Made by a program: the position numbers and the translations under genes. From contig CP136063.1 of assembly GCA_032622095.1 (NCBI GenBank), forward strand, positions 70,161,980-70,225,979: DNA of 64,000 nt, given 5' to 3'. Positions within the stretch are counted from its first letter, which is position 1, and every line of letters starts with the position of its first letter. Origin of the DNA: Siphonodentalium dalli (taxonomy: Eukaryota; Mollusca; Scaphopoda; Gadilida; Siphonodentaliidae). The notes under the pieces were generated by a model, which was not told the origin of the DNA, did no database searches, and was given only the letters and a program-made list of their open reading frames with translations. Below, in pieces: positions 9,806 to 53,825 of the stretch.

Positions 9806-9841
9806 TATAAAACCGGAAAATGTTCTTATGGGGATCATACT
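9806..9841 (+). promoter_or_regulatory. TATA box and initiator of the TSP1 gene
   Basis: TATAAAA occupies 9806-9812. An initiator-like TCATACT at 9835-9841 places an A at 9837, 31 bp downstream of the TATA box, the canonical spacing. The first ATG after this point (9883) opens the reading frame of the spliced gene. Transcription start is inferred, not measured. Confidence 0.65.
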
Positions 9842-9882
9842 TGTGTGTTTGCATACCGTTTGTCTTGCGAAAACTTTGGACG

Positions 9883-9925
9883 ATGTTACGGGATTCAGTA
9901 GTCAGCATGCAGGTTCTCTTATTAT
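9883..9925 (+). CDS. TSP1 gene exon 1: start and signal peptide
   Basis: ATG 9883 is the first ATG after the inferred transcription start. A second in-frame ATG lies at 9907, and both have A at -3. From 9883 the leader is MLRDSVVSMQVLLL, joined by splicing to CLATLVRLCDG, which gives a hydrophobic core of about 12 residues suited to secretion. The exon ends at a strong donor, GTAAGTAT, one base into a codon (phase 1). I chose 9883 because it comes first. Starting at 9907 would give a leader eight residues shorter that still works. Confidence 0.7.
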
Positions 9926-10030
9926 GTAAGTATTTTCATCTAAATCGATTTATAGATACGGCAGGCGTTCGCGGTCGGTACAACTGGACAATTATATAAA
10001 GTTTGTTAACCATTCCAAATTTTGCGAAAA

Positions 10031-10490
10031 CCCTGTGCGAATGCATTCTCTTATATATGCTAGTCACCAATATGGGGCCTCGCATATATACGAGAATACA
10101 CTGGCTAACAATACTTACTTTTGACTTGTAAGCCAGTGCATTCTCGTATGTATGCGAGGCTCACGATTGGATACTCGCATAGAGGAGAACGTCTTTGATT
10201 GGCAAAAATTTAATAACTTCGTATCCACATTTTAGACGCATTGTGTGCCTTTAATTATACCCTACCTACGAACACACAGAAACCCTGTGCCAATGCATTC
10301 TCTTATATATGTCAGTCTCCCATAGGGAGCCTCTTATATATAAGAGAATACATTGGTCTAACAATATTTACTGTGAACCTGTAAGTCATAGCATTCTCGT
10401 ATATATGCGAAGCTCCATATGGGAGATTCGTATATATGCGAGGCTCCCTATGGGAGACTCGCATTTATAAGAGAATGTCCTGGCACATAA
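10031..10490. repeat. Palindrome cluster related to the piggyBac-like MITE
   Basis: Two tandem, diverged blocks (about 10031-10203 and 10280-10490) each begin AACCCTGTG and contain hairpins built on AATGCATTCTCTTATATATG, as in the MITEs at 3480 and 12571. The TTAA ends are not evident. These may be decayed relatives, or copies of the core alone. They lie in intron 1, about 100 bp after exon 1. Confidence 0.65.
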
Positions 10491-10496
10491 TTTTTA

Positions 10497-11406
10497 ATGT
10501 TACACCAGAGCAGCTCTCGTCTGTCAGACCCGTCTGTCCGTCTGGCTATTATATCAGATATCGGGTCTGAATTAAATTTGTTATTTAGGTTCAACATCAC
10601 GACTTATTTTACAAGAGGGGCAAATAACGTTGTACGCGTTTGTCATTCTCGAATTATCCTTCTTTTTATTTTGTCTGGAAATAACTGTTTGGTCCGTCCG
10701 CGCTGATATCTCAAACATTGGTTGTCCGATATGAATGAAATTTTGCATGGTGTTCGCCATCATGACTGCTTTCTATTAATGCTTTCAGCAACTTGTCATT
10801 GCCAGCGGTTTCTATTCGTTCTTGAGTTATCCGTCGTTGTGTATTTTAATTTCGGTTCCGCCCTGCACCGCTGGGGTATGGCGAGACACGTGGTGCAACC
10901 TCTTGTTTAATGACGGAGCGCATTCGAACCTCCAAAGTAATTATCGCAATTAAAGAAGGGGAAAGGGTATATCGATAAATACTCGACAATTCCGGTCTAG
11001 TATAGACTTCATGTAGACTGTGAAAAACGTGCCGAGTCGAAGCAATTTTCGAGCTGTTTTCGTCTTCCTTTTGCACATAGGTGCACGAATGAACTTCATT
11101 TTATTTTTACAAAAACAGGAACACACTAACAAGGTACTCTCTGTATTGTTCCTTGCTGAATAATAATCTGAGTCTAAGCTTGTTAGTACATGTCAAGTGC
11201 ATATACATATGTATATGTAAACATATTCATTCTATTAATCGTCTAATATCGACCTATATTGTTTATTGCCGGTACCGGACCGGTCACTTTGTCGAGCAAG
11301 CTGCATACCTCCGATCATACTCGTATATTTGCGGGACGTTTCGCAATCTTCTGAATCATTGCCAGTGTATACCATCATATATAATAATATATCTTCTTCG
11401 CTGTAG
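10497..11406. other. Rest of intron 1
   Basis: A CTGTC/CCGTCTGTCC stretch at 10515-10545 and the ending GACACGTGGTGCAACCTCTT (near 10900) look like a dispersed repeat, but I could not set its limits. No gene is supported. Confidence 0.4.
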
Positions 11407-11454
11407 GTCTCGCAACTCTTGTGAGGTTATGTGATGGACATCATCGGGCGAATG
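11407..11454 (+). CDS. TSP1 gene exon 2: end of signal peptide
   Basis: The acceptor GCTGTAG precedes 11407 and the donor GTAAGCAT follows 11454. Joined to the T left by exon 1, it reads CLATLVRLCDGHHRAN and ends in G (phase 1). It completes the hydrophobic leader, and cleavage is likely near the CDG or just after. The exon is only 48 bp. Its support is that it keeps frame and phase between exons 1 and 3 and extends the leader sensibly. Confidence 0.65.
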
Positions 11455-12570
11455 GTAAGCATATATACATATAAGAAAATTATACTCATCAACTGTTATA
11501 TCGACACGAATTGGTGTATCTCTTTACTAACACTAACACAACGATTATGAATTAACTATGCGGTCGCGTTCACAAACTCACATATTTGCCTGGCAATTGA
11601 CACCTTTGGCACAATGAATTGCTAATGATAACAATTACGAATATAGTACTAAGTCACTAGAGATCGCGCTCCTTCTACCAGTTGTGGCTTTGTACTTGCG
11701 ATTACGAGAAGCCAAGCATGGGAACTCGAGCTTTGCATTCAATAATCGAGACTACCACTAGCTGACTATGACCTGATGATAACACAATTAAGTATAGAAT
11801 AATCACGACAGACAGATCCATAACACCTTATTGCGAATGGAAAGAAGTTTCAACAACAACATTTTTTCACTAACGGACTCATGCATGGTCGTCAAATCTG
11901 CGAAACGGTTTTCTGGACCGTCAACAAAATTTACGAGTACGATTAGCTATTAATAATTCTTAATTACTAATTATAATTCGAAGCTTCAAACCGCAAAATT
12001 TCAGGATGCTCCAGTCAAGGGATGGTTAACAAATTTGAATGTGAAAACAGTACAAGACCCTTGCTCAAATAAGTCCGACTGATCTCATAGTAATTGATCT
12101 CACCATTACTTAAAATCAGAAATATAATTTATTACAGAACAAATAACAAAATACCAAATCAAAAAAGGGTAACAATGGTGATAACTCAACTAAAATAGGT
12201 CCAACCAATCTCGTAATCACAAGGGAACAGGTTGCCATTGTGATTATATATATGTGCCATGTTTCGTAGAAAATAACCAGAAACCGAATGAGTACAAGCG
12301 TGCACAAACTCACACTATTACATACAGTAATCTCATGTTATATATGAACATCTCTGTTTTACAAGAAATTAGTCTTCTTGCCAATTTGTCCGATCTTATA
12401 TTCCTTCATTGTTCGTTCATTTTTAAACATGGTACACATATTTAGTTCCACGGTGCCCCTGGCATTATGAGGTCCATCCGCATTTTTAAGTGGAATTATT
12501 CACCTTTTTCAACTTAGAGATTGTTTGGAACCCTGTAATGCTGTCTGAGATTATATTACACGTACTTCAT

Positions 12571-13034
12571 TTAACCCTTTACCCAACAGAATGGCCCTGT
12601 GCCAATGCATTCTCTTATATATGCGAGTCGACCATAGGTCGCCTCGCATATATAAGAGAATGCATTGGCTTAACACATAATAAAAATGATTAAATTGTCA
12701 AAGAATGTAGAAAAATATTATAAAAAATGTTAAAAAATGTAAGAAAAAATTATAAAATTGTTAAAGAATGTAAGAAAAAATGGTAAAAAGTGTTAAAAAA
12801 GAGTTTTTTTAGGCCAATGCATTCTCTTATATATGCGAGGCGACATATGTTCGACTCGCATATATAAGAGAATGCATTGGCACAGGGCATAACTGTAACC
12901 ATCACAATGTGGTCAATGAACCGGTTCCAATGATATCCATATTTGTATGGTGTTATTGAGACAGACCGAAGATATTTTAGGCTGTTGAAGCTTTATTTGG
13001 GCGTTTTTGGCCGCTTTGTTGGGTAAAGGGTTAA
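12571..13034. mobile_element. piggyBac-like MITE, copy 2 (inverted relative to copy 1)
   Basis: TTAA lies at 12571-12574 and 13031-13034, with the same CCCTTTACCCAACA tips as at 3480. The hairpins are at 12602-12668 and 12814-12880. The unique arm (with CGCCCAAATA reversed) is on the right here and on the left in copy 1. The central AT-rich spacer is longer, with repeated GTTAAAGAATGTAAGAAAAA phrases, which accounts for most of the 65 bp size difference. The element is noncoding and lies in intron 2. Confidence 0.75.
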
Positions 13035-13227
13035 TGGTCAATGAGTGTCCAAACTTACTGACCATCGTCGGAACCTATGCACCCGTAATTATGAAATCCA
13101 TCCCAAGCTTTTTGCTATTTTATATATCCCATTTTTAGAGAAATGTTAGCAACGTATGTGTGTATGTTCCATCTTGCAACAGTCAATATGTGTTAATTGT
13201 TAAATGGTCTCTGATTGTTTTCGTCAG

Positions 13228-13365
13228 ACAAACGTATTGGACCAACAGAATGGAGTGAATGTCTGGCCGCGGACAGCTGTAATTCTGGAGTGCAGTGGAG
13301 GCAGATACATGATATGAGCGGCGTCATCACGATGGATTTCCAGTTGTGCTCAGATCCATGTCCAG
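13228..13365 (+). CDS. TSP1 gene exon 3: first, divergent TSP1-like module
   Basis: The acceptor TTCGTCAG precedes 13228 and the donor GTTTGT follows 13365. The 138 bp exon is phase 1 at both ends. It begins DKRIGPTEWSEC and ends LCSDPCP. TEWSEC matches the opening tryptophan/cysteine motif of TSP1, and five cysteines are present, but the usual CS.TCG.G segment and basic R-layer are only weakly kept. I call it TSP1-like because of its start, size and neighbours. Confidence 0.75.
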
Positions 13366-14176
13366 GTTTGTCACTTATTACAGTCAAGTGATTGGTGTCC
13401 GGGTCAGATACTTCCGATTTCGATATAGACAAATAACTGTGATATCACTATATATCTGTATTTTAAAAAAGACAATATGAAATTACTGATATTTAAGACC
13501 ACAACATCGTTCAATCGAAAGATAGTACGCCGAACTTCTCAGAATCATTCCAGGCATTTTTGTATCAGACAGTGTTTAATTAGATAAAAACAATACGATG
13601 TTGAAACGGTAAATAATAATATTTACACACATGACAATTGATACAATATTTGGGCGACTATTCACGGACCAGAAATTGCTTACCCAAGATGGTCTAGTTT
13701 ATTGTCATGATTTTATAACGGCGGTGGTGAGTTGTTATGTACGTTTGACATGGCAAGACGTCCAGTTAAAACGCATATGTCTATGAAACCCTGTTTGAAT
13801 ACATGCTTGCAATAATAGTTCCACGAAACACAAGAGAAACATCGGGGTATTACACAGATTTAACTTCCAACGTATTCTAAAAGATATATTTCAATTAAAA
13901 ATGCTGGAATGTTCTGAAATATTTCATGTTACATTTCGTTAACAATTATTTCTAAGTGGCATATTCTTCAACGTCTTCAACGTTTTATTCAGGCTTTTAT
14001 TCAGGCATATAGACTGTATATATTCATAACATATATACATTGATAAATGAATTACGTGATACAGGACAAATCTGTACTTATTTTGAAGGACCGACCAGGA
14101 AAGCCACCGAGTGCACAAACCCGGTCTCACTGATTCTACCAATTGTACATTTTTATAAGGACCGAGCATTTTGCAT

Positions 14177-14286
14177 CAATGCCGACACTCTGGGGTAAAT
14201 GCGCCGACTCTGTTGAGTCGCTGCGCCGACTCTCTGGAGTCGATGCGCCGACTCTCTGGGGTCAATGCGCCGACTCTCTGGAGCAG
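14177..14286. repeat. 22 bp minisatellite, about five units
   Basis: The unit is close to ATGCGCCGACTCTCTGGAGT plus two bases, repeated in tandem with small changes. Each unit contains GACTC and GAGTC and can pair with itself. It lies in intron 3. Confidence 0.8.
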
Positions 14287-15745
14287 TCTTCTGGATGAAA
14301 TGGGAATGACCAATACGGTATTTTAAATGGACACACTCGGCTCAAATCTTTCCTAAGCCAATTTTGCAGGAGAAAAACTGGAAAAATAAATCCAATAACC
14401 TTCATTCGTATCTCACGTGCATCGCGAACATCCGCACAATCGTCCGTAACATATACATCGAAAACTACCACCATAACTCATAATTCAAATCGCTATTTAT
14501 TATACGAATGGTGGTCTTTATAGCAAGCGATTATTGCAATGTTTGCTGGGCTGACAAAAAAAACGTGCTATCCATTTTTACAAGTCTATATCTGGCCTGC
14601 AAATCCTCATAATAATGGGTTCATGGTTCCGATCTAATTATTTACTTCTTTATAAAACGTACGTATTCTGTTATTGACCATGCGGAACATATGTACAATT
14701 CTATGATCTGAGTGCATCCAACTAGATCATGCCATGAATCTCTATTCTTAGTTATACGCCCGTAGCTATGCGAGCGTATCCAGAGTAGATGTTAATGATA
14801 TGATATACCGCGGGTGCGTTTTCTATTACAGAACATAATTATATCTTATCCTCGATCACCTATCATCCTTTCAAGAGGTAATTTAAACATATTTTGAATT
14901 GTCGTCACGTTGTCTCCGATAAAGAGTCCATGGCTTAGTTTTACAAAACGGTCGATAACAAAGAGCGTTCCCATTTATGATGTTTTGTATCGGTTTTCAA
15001 CTTTTTCCTGCTGGATAGCTTTGCAATGTCTGTGCGTCAAGATTGATGGTTAGTGAAAATACTCTTCAATTTCCTTAATAATTGGCTTAGGACAGTTTGA
15101 TTAATCTTACTAAAATACCTGTTGAATACGGCATACGTCGGCCTGCCAGAATATCACGGTGGGCAATCAGGTGTTTTCGAGGTTGATGACTACCACGCAA
15201 TCGAAATGGCCGAAGCGAGCGCAAAGGCACAGAAACATAAGCTATGAGGAACTGACACAAAACGTAGCATTTTGACTACTACGAGCCTATGCTAGTTTAC
15301 TTTTTTTTAACAAGTTGATAGCCCATTTGTTCCAAAATATTCAGTAGTTTTATACAACATTCTGACCAAAGTTCCCAGTCGGAGGTTCGTGGAATACACC
15401 AGTGCATGTATGCATCTAGGAGAATCCTACGACTGATAACTTTGTACATAATGTTAGAGCAAACAGTGTTGCTATTGGACACAAATTAGGTATCAGCTCG
15501 TTATATAGCCGAGGGCTCCGTCCGTCCGTTCGGGAGTCCGGACATCCGTCCGTTTATACATTTGAGCCGTAGGTGGTTAGGGGAGAAGACCAAGGCAAAA
15601 GAAAGTTTGACATGATCGACCACCTAATGTCGAACAACCACATAATGTCAGTTATAATTTTGTACAGTTAAGTGGTAGTTTTTAAGTGGTCAAAACTGTC
15701 AAAAATAACAAAAGAAAGACCAACGCCCGCCCGTCGTGCCATACG

Positions 15746-16180
15746 AACATATCACCTTGTAATTGGGGGTTAATTATCGATTGTGTTGTCCATTGTCATG
15801 GTGATAGCACATGTTGTCATGGTGATTGCACGGGTTGGGGGAAAGGATACAAACATACTATATATGGGTTTCGTCCATTATTTTTTTTTACCAGAGTTTG
15901 GGCCCTTGTTTGACTGGGAAATTTGTAAATTTTGTGTCAGTTTGAACATATCACCTTGTAATTCAGGTGTTTATTATCGGTATTATGTTATCCGTTGGCA
16001 TGGTGATATTACAGCTTATATAGGGAAAAGATACAGACTTACTAAAGGTTTCGGCTATTAATTTATACCAATTTAGGGCCTTTGTTTGAATTTGATATTT
16101 TAAGACCTTGTTTTACTTGGCAATTACTGAATTTTGTATCTGTATGAACATTTCAGCTTGTAACATGGGCATGGATCATT
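15746..16180. repeat. ~200 bp tandem repeat, two units plus a partial third
   Basis: GAACATATCACCTTGTAATT starts units near 15746 and 15945, and a diverged third begins near 16145. Within units, CATGGTGATA, GGATACA and GGGCCTTTGTTTGA recur in order. Just upstream (15505-15560) is a CCGTCCGTCCG-type stretch like that at 18420. It is noncoding and lies in intron 3. Confidence 0.7.
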
Positions 16181-16228
16181 GGATTTGGTTGCGCTTTTGG
16201 TGTATTGATAGCCCAGTTCAAGTATAGG

Positions 16229-16331
16229 ATAATGGCTGAAAACTGTACATTATTTCAGGGAATGGACCGATCGAGGCCGTAGGCCGAGATTGTTCCATTC
16301 GCTGAAATAATGTACAGTTTTCAGCTATTAT
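16229..16331. repeat. Inverted repeat, ~38 bp arms
   Basis: 16229-16265 pairs with 16294-16331, both carrying CTGTACATTATTTCAG or its complement. The loop contains GAGGCCGTAGGCCGAG. It may be the core of a small foldback element. Confidence 0.75.
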
Positions 16332-17461
16332 CTGACTTAACATGGCCGATTCCATTTGTTTGATGCGTCACCTCTTATCAGAATGGATTAACCCGAAATT
16401 AGGTCAAGACACCTGAGTTACACCAGTCCACGTGTTAGGCCCAATCCACTCGCTCATTGGCTCACGTATAGCGTGACATATTGACCCATTGTCAACTTAA
16501 TGGACAGGCAGTACCCCATTGCGTTGCCGACCAACGAATGAACACGACCTACTGACAATGAGCTCCTTCTGCAATAGATTTACGAATATCATCGGGAGTT
16601 TTGCTCTTACATTTCGGTATTTGTGTTGAATTATTTATGCGGCATATTTCGGATTTTACGGAGAATTATACCTTGACTGGCAGGTTGGTGCATGCGAGCG
16701 ATATGCATAATCGGAGATTTGGTGATCTTTAAGTTTGAGATAATACTGAAGATCGAAGGACTAAATTTACATGTAAATTACTATATTAGTTTAGGCTTTA
16801 TCGTGCTAAATGCTACAACATGCCACCCGGAAACGGAATTAAATTCGAGAAATTTTAACAGTTGAAAAATCAATGCCTATTCGTTGAACGTCTGGAATTT
16901 GAATTTATACATCCCATCCCTCCCCAACCCAAGTTACGATGCTCTATATACAGGTAAATCCGTTCTATCGTGTTCTAGCTATCAATAAGAGCAATAATAT
17001 ACTTGAAAACCGTTGTCTATAGATATCTACGTACATACATCATACGCTATCATACATGCAAGTCATATAAAATGAAATCGTCCACAGTAAAATAACCGTT
17101 CACTATATTGGGTATTGAGCATCCGTTATTAAAATAATGGATCGTTGTTTGTAAAATAATGTACGATCTCGACAATAACCATCCAGTATCCTATGAACTG
17201 GACTCGATGAACAAAGGAGTGACGTCACAGCTATGTTTTAAGGGTAAAGTATACCAACTTCTTGGGTTTAGAAAATAACAAAAAATGCTCCATCCATACA
17301 ACTATTTAGTATTGTTAACTCTCTAAACTGAGCGCCGGGGCATATGCCACTTGCGCTTGTTGTTTTACTGTGCATTGCTTCTTTGTCAAACCTTTCTGAC
17401 ACTCCCCAAAGTGAAAGGGTAAAAACTAAACATTCCGTGCATATGTCATATCTCTTTTCAG

Positions 17462-17638
17462 TCGATGGAGAATACGGACAATGGACCGAATGGTCGAGAT
17501 GTGTATCTGGGGTGCCTATGCGAAAACGTCTGCGTTTCTGCGTCCACCCACCACCAGCACATGGTGGGCGTCCTTGTCCAGAGGGACTTATTGAGGAGGA
17601 CGAGGAAAGCTGTGACAATCCGCCACCAATTTCTATAG
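17462..17638 (+). CDS. TSP1 gene exon 4: second TSP1 module
   Basis: The acceptor CTTTTCAG precedes 17462 and the donor GTGAGATA follows 17638. The 177 bp exon is phase 1 at both ends. This is a clear TSP1: YGQWTEWSRC opens it, RKRLRFC forms the basic layer, and GGRPCPEG followed by EESC closes it. The segment between WSRC and the arginine layer reads VSGVP rather than the usual cysteine-glycine pair, so one cysteine of the standard six is missing. The W..W motif is a typical C-mannosylation and glycan-binding site in this family. Confidence 0.9.
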   Translation, partial: SMENTDNGPNGRDVYLGCLCENVCVSASTHHQHMVGVLVQRDLLRRTRKAVTIRHQFL

Positions 17639-18419
17639 GTGAGATAACTCAAGTGTATATACATGTACTACATATACAGACTTTGGGGTTTTTATAGATC
17701 ATTCCATTATTATCTATCCCGGCTACGACCGTACAGGTCATGTTCCACCAGTGCAAAACCTGGGAACATGCTAATGTTCTTATCTGTTATTGTGGAAACT
17801 TTATAGCTTTGAACAACCAACGAAGGGAATTATTTCTTTGTTAATACTTAATCCTTAATAATACAATTCACAGTAGGGTGGTCACAACTTGAGATTGCAT
17901 GATAGTGGGGCTTATGTGAGTCGATATTCGCAATAGACATTGGATTGATTACCCAGGATAAATCGCATGATAGTAACCGATGCAATTCAAAATAGGTTCA
18001 AAACGTTTTTTTTTTCAATGTTAGAAACTTCCCTGTCAGAAAAATAAAAAAAGTTAATTGACATATTTTTTACTGGTGGTATATATATGATATGTACAGG
18101 TGTAGCCAGAGTAGAGATTCGTGTCATGATCGATGGTTTAGAACTCCCAATTTGGCTTGAATGCCTGAATCTGGAACCTGGAAATTACATACCACAACTA
18201 GGTTGAGATTATTATTATCATGAAGCCTTGATATTATACTTTTGCTCAAAAACATCGTATGACCAGTGTACAAAGGGTGCTGCCATATTAAAACACCAAC
18301 TTCCGGTGTAAATTATGCAGATCGGCGACTGGTCAGCACATTGTTATTACGATAAGAGATCGATAATTGCGAATTTGTATCTCCCGTTTTAAACAAGCGG
18401 AACGTATTATATTATTGGT

Positions 18420-18680
18420 TCTTCGGCGATCCGTCCGTTCGCTTTCCGTTTCCGGTGATAACTTTACATACTCACCACTGAATGGAATGCAATTTCGTAT
18501 GTGGGGTTACCAACCCAAAACACAGGTCAATGTATATCTTGGGTTCCATCTGCCAATTGTCACAAGAGTTATGGTCGTTTGTTGGAATTACTGGGGCGTA
18601 TTGTTTTTTGTGTTTAGATATTTTTACGGGGTCGATACAGTTATTAATCGCGGAGGTCTGGACTTGGGGCAGGATATTTG
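18420..18680. repeat. Dispersed repeat (CCGTCCGT / GATAACTTTA family)
   Basis: GATCCGTCCGTTCG leads into TCCGGTGATAACTTTACATA, then GGAATGCAATTTCGTATGTG, then CAGGTCAATG. The same order of phrases appears twice in tandem at 53826-54112. The 106-residue open frame here follows the repeat and has no domain I recognise. It lies in intron 4. Confidence 0.6.
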
Positions 18681-19996: not shown

Positions 19997-20161
19997 ACGG
20001 TGGATACTCGAACTGGACGCTGGCCTACCCGTGTTCTGTGAAGTGTGGTAGCGGAACCGAGGTGTGGGAGAGGCTATGTGATAACCCTCCTGCCTCCGGA
20101 AGCGGTCGGTCATGTCCCGGTGGAGTTGTTGAGAGGAAATTAGAAGCGTGTCTGCGGTGTG
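19997..20161 (+). CDS. TSP1 gene exon 5: third TSP1 module
   Basis: The acceptor ATTTCAG precedes 19997 and the donor GTAAGTAG follows 20161. The 165 bp exon is phase 1 at both ends. It starts DGGYSNWTLAYPCSVKCGSG and includes the CSVKCG signature that exon 4 lacks, then RLCDNPP, GRSCPGG and EACLRC. It has six cysteines, the full TSP1 complement. The second tryptophan of the usual W..W..C motif is replaced (YSNWTLAYPC). NWT is a potential N-glycosylation site. Confidence 0.9.
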
Positions 20162-27963: not shown

Positions 27964-28128
27964 ATGCAGTTTATACGGATTGGAGCCCCGCTGTATGTAA
28001 CAAAGACGTTCAAATTCATGGGCTTTCCATCCCATATAAATATAAATATTGCTTGTCTGGAAGCTGTGACGTAGCCATCATCGAAGAACCATTCGATCCG
28101 GTCGATGGCGACATTATTGTGTGCGGCG
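27964..28128 (+). CDS. TSP1 gene exon 6: fourth, degenerate TSP1-like module
   Basis: The acceptor ATTTTTAG precedes 27964 and the donor GTGAGTTA follows 28128. The 165 bp exon is phase 1 at both ends, the same length as exon 5. It begins DAVYTDWSPAVC, matching the Y..W..C opening of TSP1, and later has KYKYCLSGSC and a final C. The GRxCPGG segment is gone and is replaced by an acidic stretch (EEPFDPVDGD). It looks like a TSP1 module that has drifted but kept its exon frame. Confidence 0.8.
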
Positions 28129-33939: not shown

Positions 33940-35290
33940 GGCACTTTACAAAACACGACTGAGTGGCAAATATGAAAGGCGATTTTTTTATTTTTCGTGA
34001 ACACACTACCCGATTTACTGTCTTGAACACAACACGAATTGAAGATATATGCTCTCTATAGAGTGTAACATAGAGTGTAACTGAAAGGTAGCGCTATCAG
34101 ATACTAAATCATTTGTATGGGTGACTTGTGTCTGTGTCGCTTTACACAAAGCGGCTGATAAATAAGAAAGACGATTTTGCTATGTTTTGATGACCCCCCC
34201 CCCTACACATTTGAAGACTTGAAGTGTAATTTACAGTGTGAACGAAAGGTAGTGTTGTACGGAACATACAATTTATATGGGTAGTTTGGTTCCCAAAATC
34301 CTATGGAACTTTGCACAAGGCGGCTGGCAGATACGAAAGTTTAATTCTCTTTGAGCAACCTACCCCATTTAAGGTTTAAACACACCACGATATGAACGGA
34401 CATGCTCTCAATATTAACTGGGGATGTCGACAATTGGTAGGTAATTCAGTAAATACACAGCTTTGATGGGTGGGTTAGTTTCGAATGTCTGGGACACTTT
34501 ACAAAAAGTGGTTAGCAATCCAGAAAGGCGAATTCTCACTGTTGTGTGTGCCAAAAATCCCATTTGAACTTTTGACCACACACTGAACAGAAGCTATAAA
34601 TACTCTCAATATTAACTTAGTGTGTGAATGATAGGTGGTGCTATCATGGATCATATACAATATGTATGGGTGGTTTGGTTCCCGAAATCCTAGGGCACTT
34701 TACAAAAGACGGTTGGGAAATACGAAATTTGAATTTTCTTTGCTTTGAGGCCACACTACTCCATTTGAAGTCTTGAACACACCATGGACTGACAGGATAT
34801 GCTCCCAATATTAACTGAGTGTGTAGCGAAATGGTCGCGCTATCAAGAAATTTACATATTTTATGGATGGGTTGGTTGTTGAATCTTTGGGTCACTTTAC
34901 AAAAAGCGGTTGGCAAATGAGACAGGCGAATACTCACTGTTTGGGGGCCCCTAAAATTCATTTAATAAACACAGCATGAACTGAAGTTATATGTTCTCAT
35001 ATTTAGCTTCAGAGTGTGTGAACAGAAGGTAGTGCTATCACGGAATTATCAATTGATATGGGTCGTTTGGTTCTCCCGAAATCCTGGGGCACTTTACAAA
35101 AAGCGGCTGGCAAACACAGAAGGCGAATTTTCTATGTTTTGAGGACCCCGCTATCCCACTTGAAGTCTTAAATAAATAATATGCTCTCAATGTTAACTGA
35201 TGGTGTCGTTAAATGGTAGTATTATCCGGAAATACGAATCTCTTGTGGATGAGATGGTTTCAGAAAGCATATGGCAATTTACAACAAGCA
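33940..35290. repeat. Tandem array, ~175-200 bp unit, about seven copies
   Basis: CACTTTACAAAA-like phrases occur near 33944, 34137, 34313, 34497, 34696, 34896, 35093 and 35277. Between them CGGCTGGCAAATA, GAAGTCTTGAACACACCA, TATGCTCTCAATATTAACT and GTAGTGCTATCA recur in order. The array is cut at about 35290 by the LINE fragment. It is noncoding and lies in intron 6. Confidence 0.8.
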
Positions 35291-35940
35291 GTAACATTAG
35301 TCCAGGGATGTTCTGTTTTTCGCATTCTAGGATTAAGTCATATGTAAGACGAGTGCATTCGCCTATAAATCGACCTTTAAGGAAACATTTGTCTGTGTCG
35401 CCAATGATGGTACTAACTGGAGTTGTCAATGTATTAGCTATCACACTAGCCGCTAATTTGTAATCAGTGTTGAGTAGTGTAATTGGGCGTATATTTTTTA
35501 TAAATGCTTTATGTTTTCCTGGTTTGTGAAGACGTTTTATTAGACCTTGGCATTGTGTAATTGTCACCTTTCCTTTCTTGAAGGAGTAGTTGATGGCGTT
35601 TAGCAAATAGTGTGCTTTATCATGCCAAAAGAATATATAAAACTCAGCTATATAACCATCAAGGCCTGGTGATTTTTCATTTTTTATTCCTTTTATGGCT
35701 CTTAAAAGTTCCTGTACTGTAATTTGTCCTTCACAATTGTCAGTTTCTTCCAAAGATTTGTGTGTACTAAATACATTTTGAGGATCTAAACATTCTGAAG
35801 ATTCCTCATTCAGGTTACTGTCCTTTGCATATAGATTTTCGTAGAATTGTTTTTGCTCTTTTAATATTTCATTTAGCTCTGATGATTCATTTCCATCTTC
35901 TCTAGTAATTTTTGGTATTATCTTTTTCGTATAATTTATT
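35290..35940 (-). pseudogene. L1-like LINE ORF2 fragment (linker to start of RT)
   Basis: Read on the minus strand, one frame gives IPKITREDGNESSELNEIL, EQKQFYENLYAKDSNLNEES, KSPGLDGYIAEFY, HKPGKHKAFIKNIRPITLLN, DYKLAASVIANTL and KGRFIGECTRLTYDLIL. This is the order of the endonuclease-RT linker and first RT blocks of L1/Tx1-type non-LTR elements. Homology stops at GLMLLL, just before the first catalytic aspartate block, where the frame runs into the tandem repeat (to a stop at 35193). Endonuclease and most of the RT are missing, so it is a dead fragment. Confidence 0.85.
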
Positions 35941-36313
35941 TTTTCAAGATAGGCAAAGTTTGTTATTAATGTCAGCTTGGCTCATATTGGGAATAAAACC
36001 AGATTCACAAGATCTCTCCGTCAAGCCAAATTATCACGAATATACAAAGAAAATTGAGGCAAGCTTCCACCGCGTCAAGATGTCATACCCAAAGGACGAT
36101 ATCCCATCATGCAATGACATATGACATATGCACCTCGAGATAGTTACCGTTCCTACTTCGTATATCTGAATTACCTTCCCTGACAGTGCAATGCATTAGC
36201 TCTCTCCGTGCAGAAATAATTCCCAATTTATTCAATATCTTCAATCATTGAAAATTATATTTCCGTTTTCTCCCGCTTGTATAAACTCGCGTCAGTTATT
36301 CACACTAATTTTA

Positions 36314-43480: not shown

Positions 43481-43530
43481 TGTACGACAAATTGCCGCCA
43501 TTGTAATAATGGTGTGACTAAACACCGCCC

Positions 43531-43562
43531 GGACCAGCCCGGACCAGCCCGGACCAGCCCGA
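43531..43562. repeat. 10 bp GC-rich tandem repeat
   Basis: GGACCAGCCC is repeated three times with a partial fourth. Confidence 0.9.
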
Positions 43563-43639
43563 ACCCCCCCATATGGACTATATGAGTGATTTTAAGGCCA
43601 ATATAAGTGCAGGGGTGTCATGGAAACACACTCAGGGTC

Positions 43640-44080: not shown

Positions 44081-44160
44081 TAGAGCTCTGTACTTATAAA
44101 AAATAAAATAAAATAAAAATAAAAAACCTCTGTTTATTCATACTGGTGTATAGTGTGTGT

Positions 44161-44683
44161 CTATTTATGGGCGGTAACTCCGCAGAGAAAGCGCGGACAC
44201 AAGTTTTGATGCCCGTGGGCAGTAGGGCATATCGAGGTGTGCATACGGTCCAATTTTCGATGCTCTGCTCCTTATAATTTCCGAGATAGTAAAGTGACAT
44301 TTTTTTATATAAAGGGAGATAACTCAGCTGGGTAAACGCCGACAATATTCGCTATACGACAATTAGTTAGATCTCATTACCCCCAACATACATACCAAAT
44401 ATTACTTCTGTAGTCCTCATACTTTCGGAGAATAAGGCGCCGAAAAATGGTTAAGTATAATAATAATAATAATGAAAAATAATCGAAAAAGGGCCATAAC
44501 TCCGTCAAAAAACATTGCGCCGAATTCCGGATACCATTATATTTAGTAGACATCCGATACCTACATTCGCTAGAGATTTCGCGTTCCTACTGCAATTAGT
44601 TTCTGAGTATTTCCAAATAAACGGAAAACGACCCCAGTAGAAAAACAATATACTTCCTTGGTTACACCATGGAAGTATAATAA
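44161..44683. repeat. Near-identical 0.52 kb duplication, copy 1
   Basis: This matches 45888-46412 with only about ten differences seen by eye (roughly 98 percent). Both begin CTATTTATGGGCGGTAACTC and end ACACCATGGAAGTATAATAA. The minus-strand frames common to both copies (for example MSAFTQLSYLPLY...) persist because the DNA is duplicated. They lack any domain. Confidence 0.95.
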
Positions 44684-45090
44684 AAGGGAAAATCATGATC
44701 TGAAAGAATCGCATTTTTGGGACGGAAATACGAAGTATGTTGATTATATGTTGTTCTTATCATGTGAGTGTTTATCTTATGTGTTTGTAAGTGACCCCAG
44801 CCCTACCTCGAAATTGGGTAACGTCATTGGGAAATTATCAAATCCGGCCCAAAATGCGAAGTTTGAGGGCCCGTAATTCAGTTATTTTTCAATGGATTTA
44901 AAAATTGTTTTCAGTAATGTGATCAGCTCCTCACATAGATTGTTTGTTATAAATGTTGTCTGATTCGGAGACGGATAACATTTTTGTTATTGGAAAGAAT
45001 ATGGGTCCAGATTCAAATTTTGAGGCCCCAAATCTCGGCCATTTTTTAACGGATTTACGATCTGTCTTCAGTTTTGTGATCATCGTGTAT

Positions 45091-45610
45091 GGTAGATGTT
45101 ATATTCCAAGTTTCATCTGATTCGGAAAAGAATAAAAAAAATGGTACCCCGGACCGGCCCTCCCCTGATCCACAACACTGAACCGACACTGGCAAAATTT
45201 GGCACACCGCGTGCTCTCTTCAGACCGCATGCACTGGGATATCAAATGACATCCTAAGTTCGACATCTTCGGAGGAGATATGTTCACAAGCACATGGGCC
45301 CAAATTTGCATAATTTGAAGGCCCGCAACTCCGCCATTTTTCAATGGATTTTCGAAATTCTTTCAGTTTCTAGATTGATTGGCGGTGTAGATGTTATATT
45401 CCAAGTTTCATCTGATTCGGACAAGAATATAAAATTGGTACCCCGGATCGCCCCTCCCCTGATCCACAACATTGAACCGACACAGGCAAAATTTGGCACA
45501 CCGCGTGCTCTCTTCAGACCGTCCGCACTGGGATATCAGATTACATCCTAAGTTCGACATCGTCGGAGAAGATGTGTTCACAAGCACATGGGCCCAAATT
45601 GCAAACTTTG
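45091..45610. repeat. Tandem duplication, ~297 bp unit, two copies
   Basis: GATGTTATATTCCAAGTTTC starts copies near 45094 and 45391. Shared phrases are TGATCCACAACA, AAATTTGGCACACCGCGTGC and ACAAGCACATGGGCCCAAAT. Confidence 0.9.
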
Positions 45611-45887
45611 AGGGACCGTAACTCTTGCATTTCTTCTCGAATTTCAAAAATCCTTTCCGGTACCGGTTCGTGTTCGTTCAGGGAATACACATACTTAAAT
45701 AGATGAATGTCAATCCAAAAACAAATTTCCACAATTTTGCCCCCACCCCAGCGTCAAAATATATGACCGACCCTGTCCAATTTTCTTTCTCAAACTAAAC
45801 TGACAACGGTCAAACGACTGTGAAATCCAAATGCAGTTATCTGGAATGATACGAGAGTACAGCCTAGTAAATCAAATAGAGGTTTGC

Positions 45888-46412
45888 CTATTTATGGGCG
45901 GTAACTCCGCAGGGAAAGCGCGGACACAAGTTTTGATGCCCGTGGGCAGTAGGGCATATCGAGGTGTGCATACGGTCCAATTTTCGATGCTCTGCTCCTT
46001 ATAATTTCCGAGATAGTAAAGTGACATTTTTTCATATAAAGGGAGATAACTCAGCTGGGTAAACGCCGACAATATTCGCTATACGACAATTAGTTAGATC
46101 TCATTACCCCCAACATACACATACCAAATATTACTTCTGTACTCCTCATACTTTCGGAGAATAAGGCGCCGAAAAATGGTTAAATATAATAATAATAATA
46201 ATGAAAAATAATCGAAAAAGGGCCATAACTCCGTCAAAAAACATTGCGCCGAATTGCGGATACCATTATATTTAGTAGACCTCCGATGCCTACATTCGCT
46301 ATAGATTTCGCGTTCCTACTGCAATTAGTTTCTGAGTATTTCCAAATAAACGGAAAACGACCCCAGTAGAAAAACAATATACTTCCTTGGTTACACCATG
46401 GAAGTATAATAA
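45888..46412. repeat. Near-identical 0.52 kb duplication, copy 2
   Basis: Direct repeat of 44161-44683. The flanks differ on both sides, so the duplicated unit is well bounded. No terminal inverted repeats or target duplications were seen at its ends. Confidence 0.95.
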
Positions 46413-46600
46413 TGATCAGTTTTATATAGCGATTAACCAAATACTTGCTCTAACACGCTTGGTACAATATTACCTCAGTCATTTCTACAATCCAACCATT
46501 GGACCGACTGCAGCCATTGCAGGCGCTGCTCTAGTTTGATCAGAACATGCTCTGATACTCATCAGTATGACAAGCTGACTGGTACTCGTTTAACGCATGA

Positions 46601-46784
46601 GTGATGCGAAGCCGACACAGTACGAGCGACCTTGCTCAAGGGTCACAACTTGGCGCGGGTTTTGAAACAGCGAGCAATCCGACAATTGCACGTAGCTCAA
46701 GCGGCCAAGACCACTGTGTACATTCGATAACCGGAAGTGGAATCGGAAAAAGTGGAATCGACGACAAAAAATATGCACCAGGGT
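46601..46784 (+). other. Possible 5' exon of a short transcript
   Basis: A strong donor-like GGTAAGTGT lies at about 46783, and the sequence before it is less AT-rich than its surroundings and open in one frame for 61 codons. It would splice to 47291. The start is unknown and the exon may be untranslated. Support is only the donor and the following acceptor. Confidence 0.25.
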
Positions 46785-47290
46785 AAGTGTTTTGGCTTCT
46801 AATTATTCTCACAGTACTATAAAAATGTTATGAGATGGTATTTTCAATGGCATATATATTTCCAATCACATACAGCAGACTCGTTTTATCAGACGGTTTG
46901 ATGTTGTCGAGAAAAAGAAAGCGAATGTATGAAAACTCACATGTAAATAACGCGCTCTTCCAGTTCACTGTGTATGTTCACATATAATAACTAATATTCA
47001 CGCATGATTTGCACGTGGCATGTTTTCCCACTGCTCTAACGGTTCTATGCGTATATAACATGTTGCCACTTTGGCGATACTTGTCACAAACAATCGAGTT
47101 TTTTCTAGCATGTTGGTGTACGGCAGTATGCTGGGAAGTGTAATGCAGTATGCGAGTTTGGTCAATTACCAAGTGTACTGCAGTATGTCCTAACAGTTGT
47201 GATACACACAATATGGGCGCGTATTGACACAATCATTGTCTCTTATGGGGTATTCACAACGAGTAAACGCCTCAATGTTTCTCATTTCAG

Positions 47291-47497
47291 CCCTAAAGAT
47301 ATCCAACGATGTTTAAATGCTGTAACTGCGATATCGAGGCAAATACATTTGGCGAAGCTGTCGGACACGCAACACAGAAACATAAAAATAAAAACATCGA
47401 AGTAAAAAAAAAGTCCCAACAAACAACCACCATGCTGTCGTTTCCCATCATTCCTGATCTTTGTCGTGAGCAGGGTCGACGTATTACCGATTTTTGA
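47291..47497 (+). CDS. Possible exon with one C2H2-like motif
   Basis: The acceptor TTCTCATTTCAG ends at 47290. The ATG at 47309 opens a 62-residue frame: FKCCNCDIEANTFGEAVGHA followed by TQKH gives C-x2-C-x12-H-x4-H, a single C2H2-like finger. After it come a lysine-rich linker (KHKNKNIEVKKK) and PIIPDLCREQGRRITDF, then a stop. An in-frame stop just upstream of the ATG (47294) means the protein would have to start here. It could be the first exon of a larger zinc-finger or transposon-derived gene that is now broken. I do not recognise the family. Confidence 0.4.
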
Positions 47498-47971
47498 AGT
47501 TTGTTAATTATTGGCGATCTGTCCCACAAGTTAGCAGAACCACGTGATAAAAACGGACAGATTGTGGGTGTAAGATGGATAACTCTAAAATCAATGTTAT
47601 TATTGTTAATCTGATCGGACTGAGTACCTTTAAGACAACAAACTGAAAATGACTACTGATTTTGTTTTCCAACAACAGTGTAAGTTGGTTTAGTTGGAAT
47701 ATTTCGAAAACTGGAGGCACAGGTACCTATATTTGTCGAAATATTCAGACTAACCCACATTTAGACTATGGTTGGAAAAGAATCAATATCGAGCGTTTCT
47801 CTTGGTTTGAAATATTGGTGTTCAAGGGAGTGGGGTAAAAAATATCAAGATTGAACACCAAAAATGAAATAAACAACTCAACTTTCCTGGATATGTGTTG
47901 ATATAAGAGACAGTCTTTCTGTCAGTCAATCCCAATACGGTCAACCCCGTACATGAGTATACTCGTGACTA

Positions 47972-48682
47972 TCAATTGAGGGATAAAACGAATATAAATA
48001 CTATCAAATGGATCAACTGTATTTGTGCATCAGTTTTACATAGCGATTCGTGCTTATTCAAACTTGATCGCCACCTGTAACATTTCTGACACCTCCTGCA
48101 CTGGTATCGTGGGAGTTTGTACATCCCCTTCTTGTGATCTTCCATATCGAATTTTGTTGAAAATGTCCTCGAACAAACATCACAAGAGTATTCTGGCGCA
48201 TCTGCATCTGCATGGCATGTTTTATTGTGCCTATTCAAAGACCCAGGTGCCTTGAAGTTTTTCTTACATCGTTTACACTGGTCGATGGCGATTCCAGCAT
48301 GCGATGCTTTGTGGTAACGTAACTTGGACGGTTGGCAGAACCCCTTACCACATACGTTACATGTGTGTTCAAACTGCTTTGTATGTTGCGAATTTTCATG
48401 CAGCTTTAGCGCACAAAGCCTGCTGAAATATTTGCCACAATAATCACACAAGTGGGAGCTTTCTTGTTCTTGATCCGGATTATCTGCTGCAACTGGTGGT
48501 CTACGTTTTTTGACATGTCTTCTCAGATTATATAGTTTGGTTGTGCTATACGTACATTCCGAACATGTGTACTCTGTTGTCCGCTTGTGAGCAACATCCA
48601 CCGATTCGTCCGACGATGACATGACTACTGTATGACGACGATTGCGTACATATATACAGCGATAAACGTGTGACGCACACAA
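47972..48682 (-). CDS. Intronless C2H2 zinc-finger protein, nested in intron 6
   Basis: The single 236-codon frame carries six finger-like units. Finger 1 (C40, C43, H56) lacks its second histidine. Fingers 2 (C79, C82, H95, H100), 3 (C108, C111, H124, H128) and 4 (C136, C139, H152, H157) are complete. Finger 5 (C167, C170, H183) lacks the last ligand. Finger 6 (C195, C198, H211, C215) is C2HC. Start may be the second methionine, residue 21 (48622), which opens MSSSDESVD, because the first 20 residues look like leader DNA. The C-terminus LIHLIVFIFVLSLN is hydrophobic and may be a read-through tail. It is a likely nuclear DNA-binding protein, and the lack of introns suggests a retrocopy. I saw no clear poly(A) signal. 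Confidence 0.75.
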   Translation of the reverse strand: MCASHVYRCIYVRNRRHTVVMSSSDESVDVAHKRTTEYTCSECTYSTTKLYNLRRHVKKRRPPVAADNPDQEQESSHLCDYCGKYFSRLCALKLHENSQHTKQFEHTCNVCGKGFCQPSKLRYHKASHAGIAIDQCKRCKKNFKAPGSLNRHNKTCHADADAPEYSCDVCSRTFSTKFDMEDHKKGMYKLPRYQCRRCQKCYRWRSSLNKHESLCKTDAQIQLIHLIVFIFVLSLN

Positions 48683-50477
48683 AGCAAGCTGACCGTCACT
48701 TAACTCGCATGCTTTTTATTTGCTATAACATGAATAGAAAATTTATGTCGGAGTCACGGGGCCTCTCAAATGTATGATATCTCAGTCGCACTTGGAAAGC
48801 ATGAACACGAACTACGGTACGGTCAGTTACGCGTGTGCGTATTGCGTAGGCAACACAAGATATAAACATTAAAGGTACTAAATCCGATCATACGATTCTG
48901 AATTTCTATTTAATACTGACCACTTGATTTAGAGTTATCCTTCTGCAAGACCGTCCGTTTCACCGGCAAGTTCCGTTCCACAAACAATAGAAATCGTAAA
49001 CTTCAAATATTGATATCTGATCACTCGGAACGTTTGTGGGTGGATTCCTGGACTCGAATCAAATAGTATTTTTACCCCGAAGCCAATGTAATAGTAAATT
49101 AGGAGCGTCTGATCGGATTGAGTACCTTTAATATAACTGAAATATGGAGAGCACACAAATTTACATAAACCACACTTAGCATGAATGTGTGTACTGGTAT
49201 ACATATCTATTCAAACAATAAACCGTGTAGCATGTTATACACGCATGCAGCCGTGCATTGCAATCCCACAACCCCACCAAACACGCACAGTATATATTAA
49301 TTATATAATTTCTTTCACATTCTGGAGTCAGACACGTCTTTCTGTGAGACTCGACAGTGGTAAAATCATCTAATAACCAGTCGCATGCCAATGCATTCAC
49401 ACCATGTCTGCCACAAAGTATTATTAATCATGGGAAAATTAATGATTTATGTGTCGTGCAAATAGAGCAATCTTTTGCTCAAATATGTTCAATATCCACA
49501 TCACTCGCTTAAGTGAGAAGTTCAATACGCATGTACATACCCAAATCAGTGCGAAAGGTCTAGATTTGTGTCTTTCAAGCATGATGCCGTACACCGAACT
49601 CGCATACTGCAGTACACTTGTCCACTGGCTACATTGGCATACTGCCGTACACCTGGCTTTTTTTAATCGGATTTTTTTGCCAAGAAACCTGCCTTATTGG
49701 TACCAGATACATTATATATAACGCAGATCAAATCATTATATGTATATTATACCCATTTGTTTGTTAGATTTATGCACTATTCTATTTTTTCTCATTTTTA
49801 AACAAAATTAGGTGATGACTTTTCGTGCGAGCATTCGCCTAAATTGTCAATTGATGAGTAAATCTTTCATTTAATGTCAAAGTGACTATAACTACCATTA
49901 ACTACAACATATATGCCATGCACATGCGGAGGTTCGTATTTGGAAAGTGTCAAAGTCTACGAGAAAAAGCCTGATATCTGCACCCAGTGTAGCAAAAAAA
50001 CACTCGGGATGCTAACTGCCGGTGTCGTATGTACACAGTGAAGACACTGCTGTGTGTGGAGACTCAATGACCGGCGGCGCGCCGCGAACCCATATCGATG
50101 TGTTTACAGCGAATACAAGTCCGACACGCTAAAGTCTAGACCACGGAGCTCCACAAACTGCATAATAAGGTTTATCTACATGTATTTGTTCCACGGTATT
50201 TAGTATTGATATAAAAATGTCCAATAGGAAATTACACCTTATAACGGGTTTATGTCCGTGATACCTCCATTTATACATAGCGTGCTTTAATTGCGAATTA
50301 TGCAAATTAGCAAACACCACAGTTCGCGGTTGTTACGAAACTGTGGGAGTTATAAAAAGAGTGTTTTCGGAAATTATTAGAGAGCTGTGAGGGAATCTGC
50401 ACCTTGAGTTCTTCGTAGTTCTATGTTTACTGGTAATCGCTGAGCGGTCAGCAATGTTGCTGCCGAAATGTTTCCCT
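48683..50477. other. Intron 6, no gene recognised
   Basis: GTACGGCAGTATGC-type phrases near 49590-49655 are inverted relative to similar ones near 47110-47170, a weak inverted repeat flanking the zinc-finger gene. Nothing else is supported. Confidence 0.35.
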
Positions 50478-50501
50478 GGGGGGGGGGGGGGGGGGGGGGG
50501 G
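50478..50501 (+). repeat. Uninterrupted 24-base G tract
   Basis: Twenty-four consecutive Gs lie 114 bp upstream of the exon 7 acceptor. On the nascent transcript this would be a G-rich stretch able to form a quadruplex. The length may be unreliable, because such runs are often misassembled. Confidence 0.85.
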
Positions 50502-50615
50502 TGATAACAAGTGATTTCCGGCCCGCCATGTGACCTACCGTCAGCAAATCAGAAGAGACGACAATTGGATGAAGGATAACAATGGTTTTTAATAATTGCG
50601 TTTTATCTCTTTCAG

Positions 50616-50789
50616 ATTACGTGTTCGGAACGTATGATCCCTCTAAAAAACACAAATTCATATACAATGGCGGCAACAACATTTCGAGAATCATGGAAGA
50701 TATGCATAGTTTACATATGGTTAACACGTTTAACAACAAAGTGGAATTCGACCTCTATAATTCGGTATTCAAATCGATGATACCCAGCG
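50616..50789 (+). CDS. TSP1 gene exon 7: unrecognised cysteine-free exon
   Basis: The acceptor CTCTTTCAG precedes 50616 and the donor GTAAGTCT follows 50789. The 174 bp exon is phase 1 at both ends. It begins DYVFGTYDPSKKHKFIYNGG and contains NNIS, a potential N-glycosylation site, and no cysteine. It does not resemble TSP1. The strong splice sites and shared phase link it to the upstream exons across a 22 kb intron. It may begin a C-terminal fold completed by the last exon. Confidence 0.75.
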
Positions 50790-51239
50790 GTAAGTCTGTT
50801 TAGTTTGTTTCTGTAGCCTGTATGTGACAATTGTTTGTGTGAAGCGCATACGGCTGGTTTGAATATAATACAAGAACACGCCAGGTAAAGTGGGCCTGCT
50901 AATTTTCTATGATACTGGTGGGCCCGGTGATTGGATACGATGTTGGTGGTGTAATATGATGTTGGTTATTGATTCTAATGTTTTGATTGTCGTGACGTTT
51001 GGCTATTATAAACTATCTGAGAAAAAAGTAGTGTTTTCCAAACATATATATTTTAAAATATGTTAAACGACAAGAATAGCCATTTTGATTGACCATGTTG
51101 ATTAAAACTGTTTTAGAAGCACATTTGACTCGAGTCATAAACTCATTTTCATTATAATTACCATGTATTTTGAATGGCTCATAGAGCATACCAGTGTATT
51201 TTGCACTAATCGATGGTTCGAATTCATTCATTTGTTACA

Positions 51240-53321
51240 TATATTCTGTTGAGTATAAAAGGAGATTGACCCCCTTTAAGCAAGTCTTTCTGTGGCATAT
51301 GAAGTCCGGGTAAAAGTACAAATAATACATATATAGTTATATACGGTGTATCGTGCATTTTGACCCTGTACTAATACTAAATGTATTCTCCCAGTCAGTT
51401 AAGTGTACATTGGAATGGTATATTATTTATTAGGAGGGATGTTAAGATGGTAACACAGACGACAGTTAAATAGAAGTGAAGACGGAGCCATATTTATTGA
51501 GGGAAATGTTAGATAATAAATTCAACAAATGATAAGCTGTAAAGGCCACACCACTTGGATAGTAGGTTTCAGTGACCTTTCAGTAAAGCGGCATGTTGGC
51601 AGTTCGCGTTCTCATAAATAAATTTTCAAAAGCACGCTCTGTTCGCCAAACATCAACCAGCCACTCCTATATATACGATGAATGCGTTTATGTCCTTTTT
51701 AAGCAAGATAGTAACCTCGCGGCCGTATGATATTACATGTATTTGGCTTCAGACAGTTACGTACATGTAATCGGCGCTGAACAACCCTTCGTCTCGGAAT
51801 TCGACGATTTTATACAGACGACGTGTTTTTGGATAAACATATTCTCCCATGTGGTAATAAATGGAGCGGGTACACTGTTAGAAAATACTGTCGGATTAAC
51901 AGTGTCGGACCGTCGAAATCCGACGGTCCCATACCGTTTTATCAGCTGTACGGTGAACTACCGGTGTTTTATGTGCCTTGAAAATGGTCTAAGTTAAAAC
52001 TTTTCATGCCATCAAAATTCAATAGTATATTTATCGGTGACCAAATTATACAAGGCAGTGACTCCAAACATTATGACCGAATCTTGACTCGGCTGATATT
52101 TAATATGTATTATTGATTGTTTAATTGTATTAAGTACAGTGATCCAGTATTCATTCTGTGCTATGCGGATCCGCCTTATCTTGCGTCCGTAATTAAATTA
52201 TGTCCCGGTATCATTATCACTCACGAATATTCTTTTGTCGTTTTGCCTATTTCATCGCGGGCTCTCTATAAACTTTTTTTTGGGGGGGGGGGATGCGACA
52301 TCTACAGTCGTGAAATAATGTCAAGACGGTCGGACTTCGGTTCCTTTGTGAACCGGACAAGTTCTAAATGTCAGAAAACCGGCTTAATCATTGATATTTT
52401 CCACTAAATTGTGACAACTGGGTTGTCTTCGAGCTGTCGGCTATGACTCGTCATCATTGTCTCAGTGCTCATGTTGAAATTGAAAGTTCTGTGACTATCA
52501 AAACACTGACACATTTACTGACACAAGAGGATACAGGTACAATTAACAAGAGCTTCGACGTCAACCACTCGTGACAATAACAGCAGCTATTGGAATGTTG
52601 ACAGTATTGTATTTAACTTGAACAATCCAGCTGATAGTGTTCTGGTTGTTTCAAAGCACATACATGTACTTTTGCACGAGATGATATACCGTACGCACCA
52701 GCGTAACTCACAAGAGCTTCAATGTCAACAACAACAAAACCGTAAACAATGAACTGACGCCGCGCAGTGACGGATGATCTAGTCATAAGTTGAACCCAGA
52801 GAAATACAGATGCATACACGAAATATTTGTCATGGGTTGGAGCAATTTCATTGGTCGAGGGTTGTGAATCTGTTTATAAATTTGGTTACTAATTCGTACA
52901 TACGTACATGTAGTTGACATGGGTTTCGTGAATTCATCCATCATCATTGTAATGTTCGGTCTGTTCAGGTATTTTTTCCGATATGAAAAATGTTTATCTT
53001 GTGATTAAAGAGTTAACGCAATTCGTCTCCTTTTCGATTATCGACTATATATATTTATTTCCTCCAATTGCTGATGATTTATAAATAATTGTAAAAATAA
53101 TATTTCATATAATTATTAACAGAGAATGAAAGAAGCATAAAGCATATCTACAATACGTGAACATGATGCATTATACGCTTGTTAGCCTACATGTAGTACA
53201 TCATGCATCTTACCAACTGAGCGACGGATGGCCTTTTGGTGTCGTGTACGAATCACTGAAAAGATACTCAAATTGGAATTGTGTTTCATTTAACATTTGT
53301 TGACTTTCGTTATATTTACAG
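51240..53321. other. Intron 7: diverged repeats, no separate gene
   Basis: The 52005-52790 part is a diverged copy of 39990-40930. A 9-10 base G run lies near 52282. Segment 51870-51950 has CGGACCGTC/GACGGTCC palindromic phrases like those at 43.3 kb. No exon other than the flanking ones is supported. Confidence 0.5.
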
Positions 53322-53560
53322 ATGTAGATGAGAAGTATTTGTTAACTGGCGCTCGTTATATTTCGGATCAAGGATTATGGTCCCAGATAGATATCGATTT
53401 CGCCATCTCTCCATACTGGACCGGGAGCGCTCCGGTATCTGACGGCTGTCTGGTTTTGTACTTCAACAGAACGGCGGATCCTCAAACCGAAATTATTACA
53501 ATCCCATGTAATTCGACGTCCTTAGATTTCGCGATGTTCGTGTACAATTCTATATTATAG
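53322..53560 (+). CDS. TSP1 gene exon 8a: terminal exon
   Basis: The acceptor TATTTACAG precedes 53322. The phase-1 frame begins DVDEKYLLTGARYISDQGLW and runs 79 codons to TAG at 53558-53560. It has two cysteines (SDGCLVLYFNRT and IIPC-like ITIPCNSTS), which could pair, and two N-glycosylation motifs (NRT and NST). No membrane segment or GPI-like tail is visible, so the product should be soluble. The fold is not recognised. Codon use and motif spacing look coding throughout. Confidence 0.8.
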
Positions 53561-53578
53561 TGACTACAGTCAGTGTCA

Positions 53579-53584
53579 AATAAA
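53579..53584 (+). terminator. Poly(A) signal AATAAA for exon 8a
   Basis: AATAAA lies 18 bases after the stop codon, giving an unusually short 3' untranslated region. A GT-rich stretch (GCTGTTGACTTT) follows. Confidence 0.7.
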
Positions 53585-53825
53585 GCTGTTGACTTTATGC
53601 TAATTTTGATTCACAACGCATACCTCCACTGTGGACAATTCACCCCCGTAAAACCTGGTATCCCCAACTGGCGGGTATCACCAACACTGGATCAATGGTT
53701 TTAAAATGATCACGGACTTCACTAATTAAAATATGCCTTCGTGAAGTGCGATGTTCGCTCACTATGACAGCTCTCACCTCGGTAAATCTAATGGAAATTG
53801 CGACTAATTTCTGGAATTATCATAA

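Follow-up and report, generated by a model that had tools for sequence, protein, structure and literature searches.

A TSP1-repeat gene of the scaphopod Siphonodentalium dalli with a predicted secreted product belongs to an eight-copy family with divergence concentrated in its last three exons

We analysed a 64,000-nucleotide stretch of the Siphonodentalium dalli genome (assembly GCA_032622095.1, contig CP136063.1, positions 70,161,980 to 70,225,979 of the forward strand; hereafter the window), in which a first-pass annotation had described a multi-exon gene carrying a series of TSP1 modules. The gene is one of eight copies in this genome, and divergence between the copies is restricted to certain exons and clustered in runs within them. 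The features of the gene, in window coordinates, are as follows.

9806-9812, plus strand: TATAAAA promoter-like box
9883-53560, plus strand: the gene locus, eight exons that join into one open frame
9883-9925, plus strand: exon 1, ATG at 9883 and the first part of a signal-peptide-like sequence
11407-11454, plus strand: exon 2, remainder of the signal-peptide-like sequence
13228-13365, plus strand: exon 3, divergent TSP1-like module, sub-threshold in Pfam
17462-17638, plus strand: exon 4, TSP1 module
19997-20161, plus strand: exon 5, six-cysteine TSP1 module
27964-28128, plus strand: exon 6, four cysteines, TSP1-like by eye, no Pfam match
50616-50789, plus strand: exon 7, first part of the C-terminal domain
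53322-53560, plus strand: exon 8, remainder of the C-terminal domain and the stop
53579-53584, plus strand: AATAAA polyadenylation-like signal

The joined exons amount to 1,149 nucleotides, or 383 codons including the stop, and encode a product of 382 residues. All seven introns are phase 1 with GT-AG borders, so this part of the first-pass annotation was reproduced in full. Its outer limits also appear reasonable from the sequence, as 9837 would fit a transcription start derived from the TATA box and 53600 would fit the AATAAA signal. Exon 1 offers a second in-frame ATG at 9907, its 14-residue reading is common to all eight copies, and the 166 bp around the TATAAAA box and exon 1 hardly differ from copy to copy. 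The product is predicted to be secreted. Each copy carries four or five NxS/T sites, and exon 4 contains a WxxW motif, which is associated with C-mannosylation.

Pfam searches placed the TSP1 repeat family PF00090 on the whole product with an E-value of 5.2e-10, and at E<=10 three TSP1-type families and nothing else were listed. Exons 4 and 5 scored 24.1 and 31.1 bits, both over the curated cut-off of 21.6, which agrees with their earlier description as two good TSP1 modules. Exon 3 alone, searched as one variant, reached 12.4 bits against PF00090, and its TSP1-type matches were all below threshold (best E 0.04). Exon 6 had no Pfam match in any of three variants. The annotation had read exons 3 to 6 as a graded series that starts from a divergent exon 3. 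Its statement that exon 6 keeps only the W..C opening was too strong, as the sequence shows four cysteines, the second of them preceded by an aromatic run. For exons 7 and 8, which it had assigned to no family, we likewise found no Pfam family in three variants (the A, C and H types), with a single sub-threshold match to Sgo0707_N2 (E 0.23), and comparing three variants of the region with PDB sequences gave nothing significant (lowest E-values 0.34, 0.98 and 0.15). An Rfam search of the window at gathering thresholds returned no match.

With the protein of exons 7 and 8 as query, the assembly that contains the window (2.23 Gb, 9 contigs) yielded 16 matches, eight of them places of exon 7 and eight of exon 8, counting those in the window itself. 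The remaining protein as query recovered exons 3-6 of the same eight gene copies. There are thus seven whole sister copies, and the family occupies three chromosomes in all:

Contig C3 near 70.2-70.3 Mb: copy A (the window) and copy B, its inverted neighbour
Contig C3 near 167.1-167.4 Mb: copies C, D and E, in one orientation
Contig C1 near 24.9-25.0 Mb: copies F and G
Contig C4 near 27.3 Mb: copy H

Because exons 2-8 with identical splice sites could be aligned in all seven other copies, and exon 1 with the promoter region is present in all seven as well, a chance gene model is excluded. The order of exons 1-8 is shared by all eight copies, which upholds the earlier view of a single multi-exon gene and makes it unlikely that exons 7-8, as predicted from genomic DNA, belong to a separate gene. 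The frame is open in seven of the eight copies; copy G alone is broken, by one in-frame TAG in exon 5, and its other exons are open. Length differences in exons 5-8 preserve the frame. The copies group into three types, AB, CDE and FGH. Relative to the window, intron 2 carries about 1.5 kb extra near 11650 in copies C-E and about 2.4 kb extra near 11475 in F-H, insertions that could help to order the duplications. Further relatives of exons 7-8 were not found in the genome beyond the eight copies, except for two matches (E 2.4 and 6.79) that contain stops. The matches listed also included many TSP1 exons outside the family, at 32-52% identity. Among them, repeated TSP1 exons form two clusters, at C8:6.27-6.43 Mb and C3:35.3-36.2 Mb, with 49-50% identity to exon 5.

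Could the C-terminal domain be a very divergent C-type lectin-like domain (CTLD)? By eye its landmarks fall in CTLD order (W.G.P, C, PC), and exon 8 starts near the start of two split CTLD exons in the same genome (L048 and L054). We modelled exons 7 and 8 apart, each from a single sequence. The exon 7 model is one helix (mean pLDDT 72.9) and the exon 8 model is all-beta at low confidence (mean pLDDT 65.8), a combination compatible with a CTLD and not specific to it. Foldseek returned 282 matches at E<=10 for the exon 8 half-model, none at E<=0.001 and nothing interpretable in the best 50. PF00059 was absent from all three exon 7-8 variants (A, C and H types), HHalign gave a CTLD probability of 1.5% and 0.2%, and the hmmsearch scores of the eight copies lay inside the distribution for shuffled sequences (2,477 scored of 3,000), with 367-1,999 shuffles as good; both tests are low-powered, as the query family holds three types only (Neff 1.2). 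One HHalign comparison used 18 CTLD sequences, of which one (L057) was cut to a single residue; the other comparison and the hmmsearch test drew on 55 CTLDs, among which L049 and L058 represent one locus, and left out L057 and, through a length filter, the partial exons L048 and L054. CTLDs are expected to carry an outer cysteine pair, and this pair is absent here; the intron before the L048 exon looks phase 2, judged by the nearest CAG, versus phase 1 in this gene. The CTLD identity proposed by eye was unsupported by the HHalign and shuffle tests, and we regard it as doubtful.

Divergence between the types is very uneven along the gene. Exons 1-5 hardly differ between the types: between-type nonsynonymous divergence (dN, Nei-Gojobori) in exons 2-5 is 0-0.005 over five pairs, and 0.010 for A-B within one type. 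Residue differences in exons 6-8 amount to 35/191 for A-C, 33/191 for A-H and 42/195 for C-H. For every one of the 21 between-type pairs we compared each of these exons with its flanks within 250 bp. In exon 6, 8-21 of 165 bases differ, versus 4-12 of about 500 in the flanks (p<0.05 in 21/21 pairs; the largest p, 0.044, belongs to a pairing with copy G, the mosaic described below, and the lowest counts, 8, are those of A and B paired with this copy). Exon 8 differs at 29-34 of about 235 bases versus 13-21 of about 335 (p<0.05 in 21/21, largest p 0.0036). No excess over the flanks was seen in exons 4 and 5 in three of three representative pairs each. Within exons 6-8 the changes are clustered. 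With gapped columns included, 64 of 200 codon columns are variable and fall in 24 runs, whereas 20,000 shuffles gave a mean of 43.8 and a minimum of 31; with the nine gapped columns excluded, 55 of 191 are variable, again in 24 runs (20,000 shuffles, mean 39.5, minimum 28). Some runs are separated by invariant stretches of 11-24 codons, and the two cysteines of the C-terminal domain are invariant across copies. Exon 7 is 174, 180 or 189 nucleotides long according to type, through in-frame changes. The variable segments in the window copy are these:

28011-28031, plus strand: exon 6, first variable run, seven adjacent codons
28092-28127, plus strand: exon 6, second variable region
50639-50650, plus strand: exon 7, first variable run
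50705-50728, plus strand: exon 7, second variable run, with in-frame length differences between types
53348-53410, plus strand: exon 8, main variable region
53522-53557, plus strand: exon 8, variable tail; the C-terminal end takes three forms in the family

Codon models, run with our own script on a fixed three-type tree, gave an overall omega (M0) of 2.13 for exons 6-8, with a gain of M2a over M1a of 80.84 in twice the log-likelihood difference (2dlnL) in favour of positive selection, 18% of sites at an omega of about 26 and 20 sites above 0.95 posterior probability. The control exons 2-5 gave a 2dlnL of 6.52 (p 0.038) and five sites.

Taking these results together, we put the chance at roughly 55% that the family encodes secreted multi-TSP1 recognition proteins with a conserved front and a C-terminal surface diversified by selection for different partners. 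In such a protein the signal-peptide-like start would be followed by four TSP1 or TSP1-like modules and a C-terminal domain of about 140 residues. The modules would form an elongated scaffold, probably glycosylated, that presents the C-terminal domain, and the variable segments of this domain and of the last TSP1-like module would lie at the surface and contact a partner that itself varies. The near-identity of exons 1-5 would probably reflect recent duplication together with gene conversion and purifying selection, and exons 6-8 would have been pushed apart in discrete segments through selection for different binding partners. The leading candidates for the role may be immune non-self recognition and gamete recognition, with a non-self target or a gamete surface as the variable partner.

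Several results weigh against this reading. The exon-versus-flank tests assume independent sites, and their 21 pairs reflect only three types. Stretches that do not align from one type to another (past about 28390 in FGH, past 53650 in CDE) are omitted from the flank counts, and counting them makes the flanks differ much more. For exon 7 the rate is above that of the flanks in all 21 pairs, but p<0.05 is reached in only 3 of them. When 35 of the 200 columns are dropped (26 with multi-base changes in some pair and nine gapped), the M2a gain is gone (2dlnL 4.19, p 0.12) and M0 omega is 2.42; the selection signal therefore sits in multi-base codon changes, a pattern that very strong selection and segment exchange would each be expected to produce. 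Between-type pairwise dN/dS is just 1.25-1.81, and between-type synonymous divergence (dS) is 0.07-0.10 in exons 6-8 versus 0-0.025 in exons 2-5 (five pairs), so that part of the divergence comes from an older separation or from a process of mutation or conversion. Finally, Pfam, PDB sequences and the same genome yielded no homologue of the C-terminal domain beyond the eight copies.

The raised dS also favours a different history, in which the types are old and later gene conversion among the copies made the introns and 5' exons alike. Exons 6 and 8 would then look fast only because conversion was selected against in them, and selection would maintain old differences and not drive new ones. 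Intron divergence rises from 5' to 3' and shows clear type structure only toward the 3' part, in keeping with this account. Stretches by exons 4-5 show 0-9 differences per 322-357 bases with little grouping, versus intron 7, which follows AB/CDE/FGH with 72-101 differences per about 2,400 bases between types and 9-15 within. Exon 6 of copy G is also a mosaic, A-like at 8 of 10 informative sites in positions 51-68 but F-like at all six in 131-163, with F-like flanks; the mosaic could also be retained ancestral sequence. Even old types would still need selection to keep them apart over tracts of tens of bases, and exon 6 exceeds its flanks within 250 bp. We consider this account unlikely as a whole, though nearly as probable as the lectin assignment above. 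Gene conversion combined with selection against homogenising exons 6-8 fits the data, and so does fast point change.

A gamete-recognition protein, in which the variable C-terminus would bind a partner that co-evolves with it and is carried by the other gamete, seems to us somewhat less probable again. Rapid exon evolution is typical of gamete proteins, and the fast-changing exons here would suit such a role. TSP1 repeats do occur in ascidian sperm surface proteins (PMC6353882). A search of open-access literature combining TSP1, gamete recognition and positive selection, however, found nothing.

Among described systems, the pattern resembles accelerated segment switch in exons (ASSET) of snake venom three-finger toxin genes (PMC2474615; PMC2711939), the mechanism of which is not yet understood according to its authors (PMC2711939). 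As reported there, ASSET genes share with the present family a conserved gene structure, similar introns, replacement of short exon segments and retention of cysteines (PMC2474615; PMC2711939). Exons more divergent than their adjacent introns, in short segments, are the mark of ASSET, and this is what we find for exons 6 and 8. Unlike ASSET genes, the present family has another protein architecture, its changes are concentrated in the last three exons, and its mechanism may be conversion plus selection. By analogy with the snake genes one might suppose a venom-like or gland-secreted effector family, and similar introns, switched exon segments and conserved cysteines do match the ASSET description (PMC2474615; PMC2711939). 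The proteins show no known toxin fold, however, and only eight copies were found, so we think an effector role very improbable. It also seems improbable, though less so than an effector role, that the dispersed copies exchange or rewrite codon-scale segments within individual exons and keep their introns and 5' exons uniform, which would amount to a germline, exon-confined diversification, of ASSET type but outside snake venom, of a recognition domain with no assigned fold.

The gene is like animal TSP1-repeat secreted proteins (PF00090) in its two modules over the cut-off and its phase-1 module exons, and unlike them in having two modules that are sub-threshold or unmatched, a C-terminal domain without known relatives and eight copies with diversified 3' exons. 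Snail FREPs and CREPs, which combine an immunoglobulin domain with a fibrinogen or C-type lectin domain, resemble the family in being secreted (as predicted here), multi-domain, multi-copy and diversified; unlike in these proteins, an immunoglobulin, fibrinogen or recognisable C-type lectin domain was not found here by Pfam. Among the papers listed by our searches of open-access literature, which omits most subscription journals, we found none that describes a TSP1 family of this kind.

The window holds three further features besides the gene:

47975-48688, minus strand: C2H2 zinc-finger open frame in intron 6, opposite in strand to the gene (PF00096, E 1.1e-17), either a live gene or a retrocopy
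35193-35981, minus strand: open frame of 262 amino acids, by eye part of a LINE-type (long interspersed nuclear element) reverse transcriptase, with a weak sub-threshold Pfam match to DUF2764
59760-64000: a 165-bp unit repeated in tandem about 25 times, with 91% matches, running to the end of the window

If the proposed recognition role is confirmed, the family would be a natural experiment in which eight copies combine a near-constant scaffold and similar introns with three alternative binding surfaces. It would also define a secreted domain without a significant match in Pfam or PDB sequences. Comparison of the copies would then reveal the binding residues and the partner, and whether segment-wise change in exons needs more than selection on point mutations.

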